64,000 nt of DNA from Branchipolynoe longqiensis. Lineage: Eukaryota; Annelida; Polychaeta; Phyllodocida; Polynoidae. Made by a program: the position numbers and the translations under genes. The notes beneath the pieces are model-generated. The model ran no database searches, had not been told where the DNA came from, and worked only from the letters and a program-made list of their open reading frames with translations. Location: assembly GCA_030323885.1 (NCBI GenBank), contig JASIRB010000185.1, forward strand, positions 1-64,000, read 5' to 3'. This document shows positions 701 to 43,881 of the stretch, piece after piece; position 1 is the first letter of the stretch, and each line of letters begins with the position of its first letter.

Positions 701-1907
701 ATGCTCCCTGTGAGACCGAGCACTACTAAGGCTGCTAAGACTGCGACAGTTTCAGAAGAGTCTGAGTGGGAGGACTTTTCCGAGGATCAGATGAGGAGTC
801 CCCCCAGGAAGTGGTTGTGGTTGCGCGCAAACGAAAACACAAGAACAAAGAGCTTTCCTCTAATTGGGATGAGTTCACCAGGGCTTGTAAAAAGAAGCCA
901 CTGGTGAAGAAAAGTAAGAAAAAGAAATTGAAGAAGAGTAAGAAGAGCAAGTCTTCTTCTTCAGACTCATCGTCAGATTCATCGTTGACGAATTCCGACT
1001 CGGACACCCAGCGGGCGGGTAAATACACCAAGCTTAGGGTCAAGGTGGTCAAGAAGTGCAAGACACTTAAGAGAAAGATGATCTAGACCATCACCATGAT
1101 GAGGAAGACTATTCAGGGCCACTTCAATACTTTCAAGCCAGCGGAAGTCATTACGAAGCTGGCAGAAAAGTTCACGGGGATCAAGGGAATCCCGGAATCA
1201 GCGATCAAGGAGATGGACAGTGACGTTAAGTTGAGCGAGGACGGCAAGAAATTTGAAGGGGTCCTACACACCGTACACAAGGCGGTGTTGTCAGCTCTGG
1301 CAGCCATCACACCTACTGCGAATAGGATGATGACCGAGAACAAGTTCTAGTCCCTGTGTGAGGAAATGGACGGGGGGATTGTGCTGCTCACAGCGGCCAG
1401 CAATTTCCTCTCCTACAGATGGTTTGAGAATGTTTTCAAGAGGTCTGTACGGACCCTGGAAAAGGGGTAGCCAGGTCCAAGAAGGTGATGGACAATGATG
1501 GGAAGGAATATACGTTATTCCTGGGCCCCGGGCCAGTGAAAGGCAAGCCTTTGGACAAGACCAAGATGTTCGAAGGTCAACTCCAGTACTTGTTCAAACA
1601 AGTCGAGACCGGGACCAAATGCGGCAAACACATGGAAACCGAAAAAAAGAAATCTGGAGATGCGAATTCTGCCCGCTTCAAGAAGACGAGGCAGGATTTT
1701 CTAAGTCGTCAAACCGGATAGCGAGGAGGCCGGTTGAGGGCGAACTACGGCTATCAGGCCAGGGGAATGGGCCAGAGGCAGTCTTCGGCTGGAACGACGG
1801 GAACAGGCCCTTCAAGAGCGAGTTCACCCCCCAGAAACCATTCCCCCACCCAGGGAACAATTAGAGGTGGCAATGCAGACTCCAGTAAGCAAATTTATAG
1901 TGGGTAA
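701..1907 (+). pseudogene. Gag-like region of the DIRS-like element, broken
   Basis: The Gag-like product begins with an acidic stretch (701-790, SEESEWEDFSED), then shifts frame and continues at 766-1086 with a lysine-rich and serine/aspartate-rich segment. In the same frame, after a stop at 1084, follow 1096-1350 and a further part up to a stop at 1468. The frame then changes to 1485-1721 and, beyond a stop, to an Arg/Gly/Ser/Gln-rich tail ending at 1905-1907. That sums to roughly 400 residues, a plausible Gag length. No zinc knuckle is visible. Identification as Gag rests on position before the RT and on composition, not on a domain match. At least four stops and two frame changes make it a pseudogene. 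Confidence 0.7.
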
Positions 1908-3634
1908 TTTAAATAATTGCCTACCGGAATGGAACAACATTACGGATAATCTAGCTATTCTTAGCTTAGTGGGGTGCATGAGAATTCCACTCTTGCAAGA
2001 GCCTAGGCAAGATAGCATACCCTTTCCTTATCGTTTTGCTACTTCAGAACGGGAGGCAGTGAACGTTCAGGTTCACCAATTTTGTGAGAAAGGCATTATA
2101 GAACCAGCTCTTCATGAGCCTGGGGAATTTATTTCTAATATTTTCATGAGACCCAAGCAAAATGGAAATGTCAGACTAATTTTGGATTTAACAAGGTTAA
2201 ATAAATTAGTTGCGTATAAACATTTCAAAATGTTTTCACTAGAAACGGCTAGAGACTTAATAACTCAAGACTCTTGGCTAGCCAGTGTGGATCTCAGGGA
2301 TGCATACTATCCAGTACCAATTTATAAATCTGATTGCAAATATCTCAGGTTTTGTTGGAATGATAACCTTTATGAGTTTACCTGTATGCCTAACGGGCTA
2401 GCCTGTGCCCCACACATTTTCATGAGGTTGCTTAAACCTGTATTTTCCCACATGGCTAAGAAAGGACATGTTATGTTTCCGTATATTGATGACTCTTTTA
2501 TTGTGGCACAAACAAAACACCATTGTCAGAGCTATGTCAGACATTTAACAAATTAGGCTTCTATATACATGAAGCGAAATCAGTATTAACACCAACAAAG
2601 AAGTTAAAGTTTCTGTGATTCTTTATTGACACCACAGAAATTACCATATCGTTAACTGAACAAAAAGTTGATGAATTTACAACAACAGCAAACCAATTAT
2701 TACAATTGAACAAACCAAAGATAAGGCAAGTGTCAATACTAATAGGAATTATGATAGCTTATGCGTCAGCTATTCTTTACGGTAAGGCACATATTAAATC
2801 ACTAGAAATAGATTGGCTCATACTAAAGGGAATTTTAAACGGCCCATGACCATTTTGCCAGAACGTCTAGATGATATTATGTGGTGGCTAGCAGACATTA
2901 CGAATTCGCTCAACCCTATTAGAATGGGAGAACCCAATACTATGGTTACAACAGACGCTTCGCTAGAGGGTTGGGGGGCTTACAGAGTCCAACAGGCAAC
3001 AGGCGGTCGGTGGATGGAGGATGAAATCTCCGATCAAATAAATGTACTAGAGCTTAGGGCTATTTATCTAGAATTACATAGCCTAGTTCATCTACCTAAA
3101 AATCATGTAAAGGTGTTAACAGATAACAATTCAGATATGGCTTATGTACGTAATATGGGAGGGACTCGTTCCAAACCATGTAACCAGTTAACCAAATTAA
3201 TTTGGGACTGGGCAGAGGACATATGGCTAACGGTAGCACATATCCAAGGCAGTAAAAATACTTTGGCTGACAAGAAAAGTCTACATTTTCACGATCATCT
3301 AGAGTGGTCATTAAATCTGAGTATTTTTAACCAAATTTGTGATAAATGGGGCAAACCAGAAATTGACTTATTTGCATCACGCAACAATAGAAAGTTACCC
3401 AAATATGTATCTTGGCATCCAGAGCCAGAAGCTTGGAGGGTAGATGCATTTTCTCTGATTTGGAATAAAAATAAATTTTATTACATATTCCCACCATTCA
3501 GCATTATTAGCAGAGTGGCCAGGAAGATCAAGATGGATCACTCACACGCAGTACTGATAGTACCAGCATGGGACACGCAACTGTGGCTAGCGGCAGTAAC
3601 CTTAGCAGCAAAAGACATGCTCAGGTTTCCATGA
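1867..3634 (+). pseudogene. Reverse transcriptase-RNase H of the DIRS-like element, frameshifted
   Basis: The first open part (1867-2556) is a reverse transcriptase. The catalytic aspartate lies in VDLRDAYYPVPI (D142) and the YIDD box is at residues 206-209, with the CMPNGLACAP fold motif between them. The polymerase frame then shifts near 2535, continues to a TGA near 2617 and shifts again before the open part at 2813-3634. That part carries RNase H: TTDASLEGWGAY (D48), LELRA (E80), LTDNNSD (D104) and NTLAD (D153) supply the four acidic residues expected. It is followed by the segment EIDLFASRNN...PKYVSW, typical of DIRS-type pol proteins. The start at 2813 in the open frame is arbitrary because the real protein begins upstream. 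No function is expected today. Confidence 0.9.
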
Positions 3635-3674
3635 GAAAGGAACAACCTACAACATCAAGGACCACTGACAGTTC

Positions 3675-4112
3675 ATGGAGACGTGTCAACGAACCTCTTT
3701 TGGCATTCCTTTTTTAAGAAAACATTTAGAACAATATGGTTTAGACAAGATTACACAAAAAATACTTAGTTTACATACCTGGAGGAAAGGAATGGTGAAA
3801 TTATATACAAGTTATTTAAAGAAATGGGGACTTCATTGTCTGATTAAAGGAGTCAAGCCATTAAAACCAACAATAGCCCAAGTTGTAAGATTTCTAAGAA
3901 TATTAGAAGATGAGGGATTGGGATTTGGGGTGATTAATGCAGCAAGATGTGCACTTTCAATTATTCTATCGAGGGTAGATGGACAAACGATTGGAAAGCA
4001 TCAGTTAGTACACTGGTTTATTAGATCAGTGTATGAAAGAAGCCCACTGAAAGAAACCCATCCAAACCCAAGTATAATAGGTTATGGTGAGGGTTTGGGT
4101 GCTGCCATCTAA
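3675..4112 (+). pseudogene. Tyrosine recombinase (N-terminal part only) of the DIRS-like element
   Basis: This 145-residue open frame resembles the SAM-like core-binding half of DIRS tyrosine recombinases. It contains helices such as TWRKGMVKLYTSYLKKWG, followed by a segment ending in GFGVINAARCALS and the IGKHQLVHWF motif that precedes the catalytic domain. The catalytic half, with its Arg-His-Arg-Tyr residues, is missing: homology stops near residue 130 and the frame ends at 4112. The frame follows the RNase H part after about 40 bases, as expected for adjacent or overlapping pol and YR frames. Truncation here suggests a deletion or insertion joined the element to the sequence before R1 at about 4180. 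Confidence 0.82.
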
Positions 4113-13140: not shown

Positions 13141-13960
13141 GTCCACATGACTACACCTTATGTCCACACAACCTGTCCACCCCTAATCATGACCACACAT
13201 TCACATGACCACACATCCACATGACTACACCTTATGTCCGCACAACCTGTCCACACATAATCATGACCACACATTCACATGACCACACAGACACACGTCC
13301 ACATCACTAGACACCTTCATGTCCTCACAACAACCTGTCCACACTTAATCATGATGACACATTCACATGACCACACAGACAGGTCCACATGACTACACAC
13401 CTTTATGTCCACACAACAACTTGTCCACCCCTAATCATGACCACACATTCACATGACCACACAGACACACATCCACATGACTACACCTTATGTCTGCACA
13501 ACCTGTCCACACATAATCATGACCACACATTCACATGACCACACAGACACACGTCCACATGACTAGACACCTTTATGTCCACACAACAACTTGTCCACCC
13601 CTAATCATGACCACACATTCACATGACCACACAGACACACATCCACATGACTACACACCTTTATGTCCACACAACAACTTGTCCACCCCTAATCATGACC
13701 ACACATTCACATGACCACACAGACACACATCCACATGACTACACCTTATGTCTGCACAACCTGTCCACACATAATCATGACCATACAGACACACGTCCAC
13801 ATGACTAGACACCTTTATGTCCACACAACAACTTGTCCACCCCTAATCATGACCACACATTCACATGACCACACAGACACACATCCACATGACTACACAC
13901 CTTTATGTCCACACAACAACCTGTCCACCCATGATAATCAATACCACAAATTCACCTGAC
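13141..13960 (+). repeat. Minisatellite, about 10 units of 72-90 bp
   Basis: Units contain CCACATGACTA(C/G)AC, TTATGTCC-CACAACA, TGTCCACCCCTAATCATGACC and CACAGACACAC. The word AATCATGA or a variant recurs near 13185, 13259, 13347, 13433, 13514, 13603, 13691, 13773, 13845 and 13935. Two unit types (CTGTCCACACATAATC and CTTGTCCACCCCTAATC) interleave. Open frames here are repeat translations. Confidence 0.9.
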
Positions 13961-14126
13961 CACACAAACACGCGACGGTCCACATGACTGCACACCATAA
14001 TGGCCACACAACAACATGTCCACACATAGTCCACATGACTACATACCCACATGTTTACTCAACCACATGTCTACAAGTACACATCACCACACGTCCCCAT
14101 GATAACCAGGCAACAGTCTCATGTAA

Positions 14127-24498: not shown

Positions 24499-24778
24499 TC
24501 AGCCTCACGAAAATGGGCCAATTGGTGGTTTATTTAAGATGTCGGCGTCGCAATTCTTAAAGTGCAGTGCATTTCTTTGTTTTATATTAAATTATCCTAG
24601 AAGCAAATAAGGTTGTTGTATTTTCTCTAACTTTACATTCAGGATAAATTTAAGGACTTTCCAACACCTCTGTCAATGCTAAACTATAAGTATGACGATC
24701 GACGCCGACATCCAATGATCGACGCCGACAACTTCCTCCAATTGGCTCGTTTCGTGATCCTGACCCATATATATATAT

Positions 24779-24825
24779 GAAGAGTTCAGGCGCAAAACAA
24801 CGTAAAGTAACCTACCACCTCCACA

Positions 24826-24887
<62 letters not shown>

Positions 24888-24934
24888 GAAGAGTTCTGGC
24901 GCAAAACCACATAAAGTAACCGACCACCTCCACA

Positions 24935-24988
<54 letters not shown>

Positions 24989-25032
24989 GAGTTCTGGTGC
25001 AAAACCACGTAAAGTAACCGACCACCTCCACA

Positions 25033-25086
<54 letters not shown>

Positions 25087-25130
25087 GAGTTCTGGTGCAA
25101 AACCACATAAAGTAACCGACCACCTCCACA

Positions 25131-25178
<48 letters not shown>

Positions 25179-25222
25179 GAGTTCTGGTGCAAAACCACGT
25201 AAAGTAACCGACCACCTCCACA

Positions 25223-25266
<44 letters not shown>

Positions 25267-25310
25267 GAGTTCTGGTGCAAAACCACGTAAAGTAACCTAC
25301 CACCTCCACA

Positions 25311-25363
<53 letters not shown>

Positions 25364-25412
25364 ATGAAGAGTTCTGGTGCAAAACCACGTAAAGTAACCG
25401 ACCACCTCCACA
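24779..25412 (+). repeat. Compound minisatellite: 7 conserved 55-bp spacers each followed by (TG)n(TA)n
   Basis: GAAGAGTTCTGGTGCAAAACC starts at 24779, 24888, 24986, 25084, 25176, 25264 and 25366. The unit continues ACGTAAAGTAACCGACC and ACCTCCACATGTGTGTG and then a TA run of varying length. Open frames up to 201 residues on the minus strand (24679-25489) are Tyr/Ile runs with a repeated spacer and are not genes. Confidence 0.93.
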
Positions 25413-43015: not shown

Positions 43016-43271
43016 TTAAAGTTGCATAGTCCGATGCTTTTGAGTTTCTGCCATTTTCTGAGATAAATGCTGATCGTTATGATCTATGTTACGTTAGTTT
43101 GAAGCAACTTTGAATTTAAATGGCTAACTTTGAAGGTATTTGACGTTAAAACATGCCAAATAAATGTTGGCAAGCACCCCAAAACCTTCAGTACTGTAGT
43201 GGTCTGCACTGACCTCTCAGGCAAGTAACCACATAGACAGGTAGGCGTGGGGAGTGTATTGATATCAGGGA

Positions 43272-43344
43272 GCCTAGGTGGTGTAATGGTTAGCACACTG
43301 GCCCGGAATGCAAAGAGATGTGGGTTCGAGTCCCGCTCTAGGCA
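43272..43344 (+). other. tRNA-like sequence in the left LTR
   Basis: A 72-nt cloverleaf plus discriminator: acceptor GCCTAGG with TCTAGGC, D-arm GTGT...GCAC, T-arm GTGGGTTCGAGTCCCGC with a 5-bp stem. The D-arm word TGGTGTAATGGTTAGCAC is that of tRNA-Gln as I remember it. The anticodon stem (CTGGC and GCAAA) pairs at only three of five positions and base 33 is C, so it is unlikely to be a working tRNA. A and B boxes are intact, and TTTT follows at 43357. Confidence 0.75.
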
Positions 43345-43600
43345 CAATATTTCCCATTTTCATCACCCCCACGACACTGGTTGCCGTGATCAGGATCCTG
43401 TACAAGGCAACAAGCTTTGCGCTGTATGGTTGTTGAACCTACCCTGTGTATGTAGGTGTTAGTGCATTGCCTGTATGTATGTAATTGTAAGCATTACAAG
43501 ACTTACAATTCCAGGGGGACGAGTGTAGTGGTCTGCACTGACCTCTCAGGCAAGTAACCACATAGACAGGTAGGCGTGGGGAGTGTATTGATATCAGGGA

Positions 43601-43673
43601 GCCTAGGTGGTGTAATGGTTAGCACACTGGCCCGGAATGCAAAGAGATGTGGGTTCGAGTCCCGCTCTAGGCA
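43601..43673 (+). other. tRNA-like sequence in the right LTR
   Basis: Identical by eye to the left-LTR copy; it shares the same intact acceptor, D- and T-arms and the same broken anticodon stem. Confidence 0.75.
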
Positions 43674-43881
43674 CAGTAATTCCCATTTTCATCACCCCCA
43701 CGACAGTACCATAGCCTCCAGTAGTAACAGGTTCTATTAAATTGACTTATTACGACCTTCTATGCAGCAACAAATGCTTAATAAGTGCACCAATATCTAA
43801 GTTGAATATATAGAATCAAATCTAGATAAGTGTTTTTGGTTTTGAAAATTTGATGTTTTCATCAGACTATGCAATTTTAAC

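Follow-up and report, generated by a model that had tools for sequence, protein, structure and literature searches.

TRIMs whose LTRs carry tRNA-like sequences were named Helenus by Kojima 2024 (PMC10886601), where, in the parts of the paper available to us, they are reported from six animal phyla, fungi and a plant. According to the same text, target-site duplications measure 4 bp in animals, tRNA-His is one of the primers used by bivalve and vertebrate families, and in zebrafish the elements form tandem arrays and reach high copy numbers, the 5,575 LTRs of LTR-11_DR being the largest count given; mobilization by Gypsy elements in animals was deduced there from the likeness of the primer binding sites (PBSs) and from the 4-bp duplications. 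Helenus is also mentioned in the accessible part of a 2026 meeting report. For Cassandra, a plant TRIM with tandem arrays of its own, the partners were called unknown in the available text of Kalendar 2020 (PMC7215508), and the portion of a 2024 Cassandra paper (PMC10853983) at our disposal names no partner. The element that we describe here, from the annelid Branchipolynoe longqiensis, belongs to the Helenus kind, to which it was matched by described features and not by deposited sequences. The original prediction, made from the letters of the locus, had likened the element to Cassandra, a parallel that holds; its suggestion of an independent invention, and hence of novelty, is superseded by the description of Helenus in what we have of Kojima 2024 (PMC10886601).

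The window, which is the whole 64,000-nucleotide stretch of DNA analysed, contains one complete copy of the element (Table 1). Its two LTRs, each of 182 nt, are 99% identical, with two differences, and start with TGTA and end with GACA; the interior, 147 bp in this copy, is ~139 bp in most copies examined. Comparison of the window with itself bore out the predicted architecture of 182-bp repeats differing at two positions, a GTAC duplication and a total of 511 bp devoid of coding capacity, and the expected purine tract and candidate primer site are also present, as AGGGGGACGAG and a PBS for tRNA-His, respectively.

Table 1. Coordinates of the Helenus-kind element and its parts within the window.
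Feature	Positions	Strand	Basis or remark
Complete element	43195-43705	+	511 bp, non-coding LTR element
Target-site duplication GTAC, left copy	43191-43194		Sequence; empty-site paralogue
5' LTR, 182 bp	43195-43376	+	Self-comparison of window
tRNA-like sequence, 5' LTR	43272-43344	+	ARAGORN, Rfam tRNA model, Infernal alignment
A-box-like TGGTGTAATGG	43279-43289	+	Start at LTR position 85; low variation among copies
B box GGTTCGAGTCC	43323-43333	+	Start at LTR position 129; low variation among copies
TTTT, candidate Pol III terminator (putative role)	43357-43360	+	Start at LTR position 163
Interior, 147 bp, non-coding	43377-43523	+	Self-comparison
PBS, complementary to tRNA-His 3' end	43378-43396	+	Sequence; host tRNA-His genes
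Polypurine-tract-like AGGGGGACGAG, one C interrupting (candidate function)	43513-43523	+	Sequence
3' LTR, 182 bp	43524-43705	+	Self-comparison
tRNA-like sequence, 3' LTR	43601-43673	+	ARAGORN, Rfam tRNA model
TTTT of 3' LTR, proposed RNA end (putative role)	43686-43689	+	Sequence
Target-site duplication GTAC, right copy	43706-43709		Sequence

The element is flanked by a repeat of ~350 bp with 21-nt inverted ends (arms at 43016-43036 and 43860-43880). When these flanks are rejoined with a single GTAC they align unbroken across the junction to other copies of the repeat, such as the uninterrupted one at window 11681-11327 (84.6% over 358 bp), and the element together with one GTAC is therefore an insertion. 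Perfect 4-bp duplications surround 27 of 38 distinct complete elements or arrays at loci L001-L050, comprising 20 of 25 two-LTR forms and 7 of 12 three-LTR forms but not the one solo LTR, in a count that excluded identical repeats and chains not starting and ending in a full LTR. The misses include false borders, because the rule cut some arrays (at L004, for example, the right flank is interior sequence). Thus, the predicted LTR-interior-LTR structure recurs in other copies, with one duplication enclosing the whole element, and these are not paired SINEs.

Several other features of the window may be recorded here. The ~350-bp repeat around the element (window about 43016-43880) is MITE-like, and many copies of it occur in the window and in the loci. 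The minus strand at window 38014-37689 carries an old LTR of this kind that has diverged to 74-77% similarity; its tRNA-like part is interrupted by an insert of ~170 bp, and no matching second LTR adjoins it. The plus strand of window 1867-4112 contains the open frames of a reverse-transcriptase element, the first with RVT_1 and the second narrowly exceeding the cut-off of the Dam methylase family, a combination known from DIRS-like elements. Self-comparison also revealed tandem repeats at window 13141-14102 and 24767-25412.

The genome searched comprises 1,850,408,144 bases in 1,914 contigs. Its 45 matches to Wnt exons, Wnt being specific to animals, mark it as an animal genome; a family search for COX1 gave no match, nor did molluscan haemocyanin, whose controls likewise matched nowhere. 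It contains 33,701 matches to the tRNA-like core (60 nt, up to three mismatches), 18,840 to the first 60 nt of the LTR (up to three mismatches) and 8,816 exact copies of the 31-nt junction between interior and 3' LTR, the reversed control giving zero in each case; with thousands of further copies, a chance origin of the structure is excluded. Most of the genome matches listed span 502-503 bp (40 scored of 483 first-look candidates). At loci L001-L080 we counted 52 chains, comprising 31 with two LTRs, 14 with three, one with six, two solo LTRs and four others, chains lying 10 bases or less from the end of a locus having been dropped; the genome search for full-length elements and solo LTRs, proposed with the original prediction, thus recovered both. 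The LTR pairs of the 31 elements differ by a median of 1.6% and are identical in five, which suggests that the family contains young members, although the loci, having been selected for their resemblance to the window copy or for short exact matches, are biased towards young copies. The expectation of a larger autonomous partner with the same LTR ends fared less well. Its candidate, L036, was rejected, the ~950 bp of extra sequence having the appearance of a nested insertion at interior position 94-99, and the PBS led to a different, second LTR family.

Both tRNA-like copies were detected by ARAGORN (43272-43345 and 43601-43674), which calls them tRNA-Ser, and both match the Rfam tRNA model (48.4 bits; gathering score, 29); tRNA is the sole Rfam family to reach its gathering score in the window, where there is no match to 5S rRNA. 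By eye the acceptor, D and T arms pair, and the Infernal alignment contains four non-standard positions, located in the D arm and anticodon stem. The cloverleaf is not the minimum-energy fold of the 73-nt RNA (z -1.21; 23 of 200 shuffles fold at least equally well). The cloverleaf originally predicted is thus upheld by ARAGORN, Rfam and inspection in its arms and in the TTTT that follows, and falls short in its length, which is 73 and not 72 nt, and as a minimum-energy structure.

Variation in the promoter boxes was assessed in 50 distinct LTRs from loci L051-L080, which were picked by an exact polypurine tract plus the first 13 nt of the LTR and hence independently of the tRNA-like part; only near-full-length LTRs were aligned, and the sample is confined to the initial 5.7 Mb of a single chromosome, its copies being related and the members of arrays non-independent. 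Boxes A and B show four rare changes over 23 positions (0.35% per site), compared with rare variants at 2.1% per site over the remaining 146 positions of the same LTRs. Just two of 114 same-spacing placements of two blocks vary as little as the boxes; a permutation over positions gives p 0.00045. TTTT is retained in 48 of the 50. An earlier count, on 92 LTRs, was discarded because part of that sample had been selected via the tRNA-like core. LTR 5' ends (18,840) are fewer than tRNA-like cores (33,701), a deficit that may also reflect constraint on the boxes, truncated copies or relatives being alternative causes. The absence of any other TTTT from the transcript path was rejected as evidence for Pol III, as 61% of shuffles share it.

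The complement of the PBS is the end of host tRNA-His genes. The 22-nt 3' end of tRNA-His has 81 genome matches with up to one mismatch, and four of eight loci cut out from such matches hold tRNA-His according to ARAGORN. The LTR end followed by a longer tRNA-His complement occurs at eight places (up to three mismatches), all of which were inspected. Two of these, L097 and L098, are ordinary elements without the extra T. In three others the LTR is followed by 36 nt (L092), 69 nt with one mismatch (L093) or 34 nt with one mismatch (L094) of tRNA-His complement and then by other DNA, with no second LTR downstream within the 1.3-1.5 kb fetched. All three fusions include the complement of the CCA, which is not encoded in the genome downstream of the tRNA-His genes at L085-L087, and the TGG in the fusions therefore shows that mature tRNA was read. 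L092-L094 are most naturally read as captured plus-strand strong-stop DNA whose synthesis had run on beyond the usual stop, with the primer tRNA as template. At L095 and L096 there is an apparent switch at the T arm, L096 running on into an inverted LTR of the same element family. Common copies carry an extra base in the PBS (TGGTT, in 30 of 31 distinct junction contexts counted), whereas the fusions read TGGTG, and thus the sequence of the primer seems seldom to be inherited. Separately, at about 1270-1720 of L081 (C1:5350888), inverted repeats surround a complete tRNA-His sequence whose ends are CTGG and CCAG; it could be a self-primed copy of another element's strong-stop product, and a flank like that of L081 recurs both in L084 and in the insertion nested in L036.

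The second LTR family, reached through the PBS, has an LTR that contains AATAAA and starts with TGTAGTAGTCTGTAC, compared with TGTAGTGGTCTGCAC in the element described here (13 of 15 positions identical); a tRNA-His-like PBS follows this LTR in L083 and L090. There were 4,801 first-look candidates for the family, 40 of which were scored. One copy, of 7.5 kb, has CTTG on both sides. Eight translated open frames from two of the three fetched pieces of this copy, 1.3 kb of it lying outside the scan, gave no Pfam match (E up to 1 or 10), and the label Gypsy was withheld; one second-family frame had no relatives at E 0.001 among 8,000 protein candidates scored. L089 and L091 (C3:9925100-9930600, minus strand) belong to a 7.5-kb LTR element that is bounded by a 4-bp duplication. 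Their open frames, of up to 291 codons, have no known domain and are gag-like by eye only.

At least five insertions are hybrids of the Helenus-kind element and the second family, and in all five the junction is at the PBS. In L082, the LTR of this element runs into 27 nt of tRNA-His complement, after which come the interior and 3' LTR of the second family. The reciprocal arrangement, a second-family LTR end joined to this element's PBS, was sought with up to three mismatches and matched at 527 places; among the 100 listed, most are variants of this element, and the four hybrids L099-L102 are those that read GGCCATTACA. Each of the four opens with a second-family LTR and passes at the PBS into this element's interior. 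L100, L101 and L102 continue into this element's LTR, to which L102 adds a further interior and LTR, and L099 has 17 nt of that LTR and then other DNA resembling second-family interior. Perfect duplications enclose L101 (GTAT) and L102 (ATAT, in AT-rich DNA); three of four bases agree at L100, L082 has none, and L099 was scored without its far end, which lay beyond the sequence fetched. A search for one form of hybrid at the other end of the interior, the second-family polypurine tract joined to this element's LTR, returned five matches, none of them hybrid by their letters, which are those of variants of this element's own tract. Among the titles and abstract openings listed in searches of the literature, none reports hybrids between such an element and another LTR family.

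We consider it probable that these observations are explained by a non-autonomous LTR retrotransposon of the Helenus kind whose cycle combines Pol III transcription with particles shared with another element. Transcription, presumably by Pol III, would start at the tRNA-like sequence of the 5' LTR, read past the weak TTTT of that LTR and through the interior, and halt at the TTTT of the 3' LTR, and the tRNA-like sequence (about LTR positions 78-166) would form the R region repeated at both ends of the RNA. This RNA would be packaged, and would share its particles with a second LTR element, the one with the Pol II-type AATAAA in its LTR; mature tRNA-His would prime at the PBS, copying would proceed as is usual for LTR elements, and integration would be the work of an integrase producing 4-bp duplications. 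It should be stressed that the TTTT of the 5' LTR ought to stop Pol III early too, which speaks against the proposed cycle. The fusions and the hybrid insertions support three parts of this scheme: tRNA-His as the primer, transfer of strands between the two elements at the PBS, and reverse transcription of both in common particles. A more specific proposal, evenly poised in our judgement between right and wrong when its parts are taken jointly, is that the Pol III-type miniature and the Pol II-type LTR element are co-reverse-transcribed in the same particles, and that the primer site for tRNA-His, which they have in common, allows plus-strand strong-stop DNA made on one of them to transfer to the minus strand of the other, in either direction, yielding reciprocal hybrids; the T arm of the tRNA-like sequence may also be a landing site for template switches, as in the apparent switch from the tRNA-His primer at L095 and L096.

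It might be countered that the tRNA-like sequence is a passenger, an old SINE insertion in the LTR of an element transcribed by Pol II. Kojima 2024 (PMC10886601) proposes, in the text available, a SINE insertion as the origin, and a best RNA fold other than the cloverleaf also favours this view. The boxes, however, show about one-sixth of the variation seen in the remainder of the LTR, and all 30 exact-core loci examined sit within whole or partial LTR copies, with none in a free SINE. Moreover, a search of the window's 5' LTR for AATAAA, ATTAAA and TATAWA found neither a polyadenylation signal nor a TATA box, whereas the second-family LTR has AATAAA, and a passenger is accordingly quite improbable. 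A further alternative is that there is no LTR element at all, but either two adjacent SINE insertions with separate duplications, the contrary reading raised with the original prediction, or a tandem duplication. This alternative draws on the commonness of arrays (14 three-LTR and one six-LTR of the 52 chains). It is refuted by the single duplications that enclose whole elements, of both two and three LTRs, and its remaining probability is negligible; at the window locus there is likewise one duplication, in a repeat that is uninterrupted elsewhere, and the PBS, the polypurine-tract-like sequence and the hybrids formed at the PBS also argue against it.

The hybrids could, in turn, reflect recombination or gene conversion between integrated copies instead of strand transfer during reverse transcription. 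The two families have the PBS in common and agree at 13 of the first 15 LTR nucleotides, L082 and L100 lack a perfect duplication, and the second junction of L099 lies 17 nt inside the LTR, all of which such exchange would accommodate. In contrast, it would not give the perfect duplications around L101 and L102, although two cases are few. The location of the junction at the PBS in all five hybrids, with none recovered in the one search between polypurine tract and LTR, is the pattern predicted by transfer of strong-stop DNA between two templates in one particle, and the LTR-tRNA fusions at three other loci are hard to make except by reverse transcription. Recombination is thus an unlikely source of the hybrids, and we retain strand transfer between co-packaged templates as the preferred explanation.

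SINE2 elements, the tRNA-derived SINEs, resemble the element in their tRNA-like head; we know of no SINE with LTRs, a PBS or a fixed 4-bp duplication, and the family of the window element does not consist of single units that lack LTRs and carry their own duplications. Ajax of nemerteans is, in the available text of Kojima 2024 (PMC10886601), a TRIM with a Pol III-type promoter, as here, but its promoter derives from 5S rRNA and its duplications are of 5 bp. Similarly, Cassandra is a TRIM that forms tandem arrays and bears a Pol III promoter derived from a small RNA in its LTR (PMC7215508, as far as its text is available); its promoter, however, is derived from 5S rRNA, to which the window element has no match. 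With Helenus, as characterized in the sections of Kojima 2024 at hand, the element shares its short, non-coding LTR structure, LTRs that each contain a tRNA-like sequence and its A and B boxes, a PBS, a polypurine tract, 4-bp duplications, tRNA-His and tandem arrays. It differs in abundance, the 33,701 cores counted here exceeding the 5,575 LTRs of LTR-11_DR under different counting rules, and in its hybrids with another LTR family, which are not described in those sections of Kojima 2024 (PMC10886601). Copies of such elements may inflate tRNA gene counts, since ARAGORN calls both copies in the window tRNA-Ser. The kind has been known since 2024, and what may be new is the use of hybrids as evidence on how the element moves. 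The partner of Pol III-type TRIMs is deduced (Kojima 2024) or called unknown (Kalendar 2020) in the accessible parts of these papers; the hybrids provide physical evidence of shared reverse transcription, and similar ones can be looked for in other genomes that contain Helenus or Cassandra.
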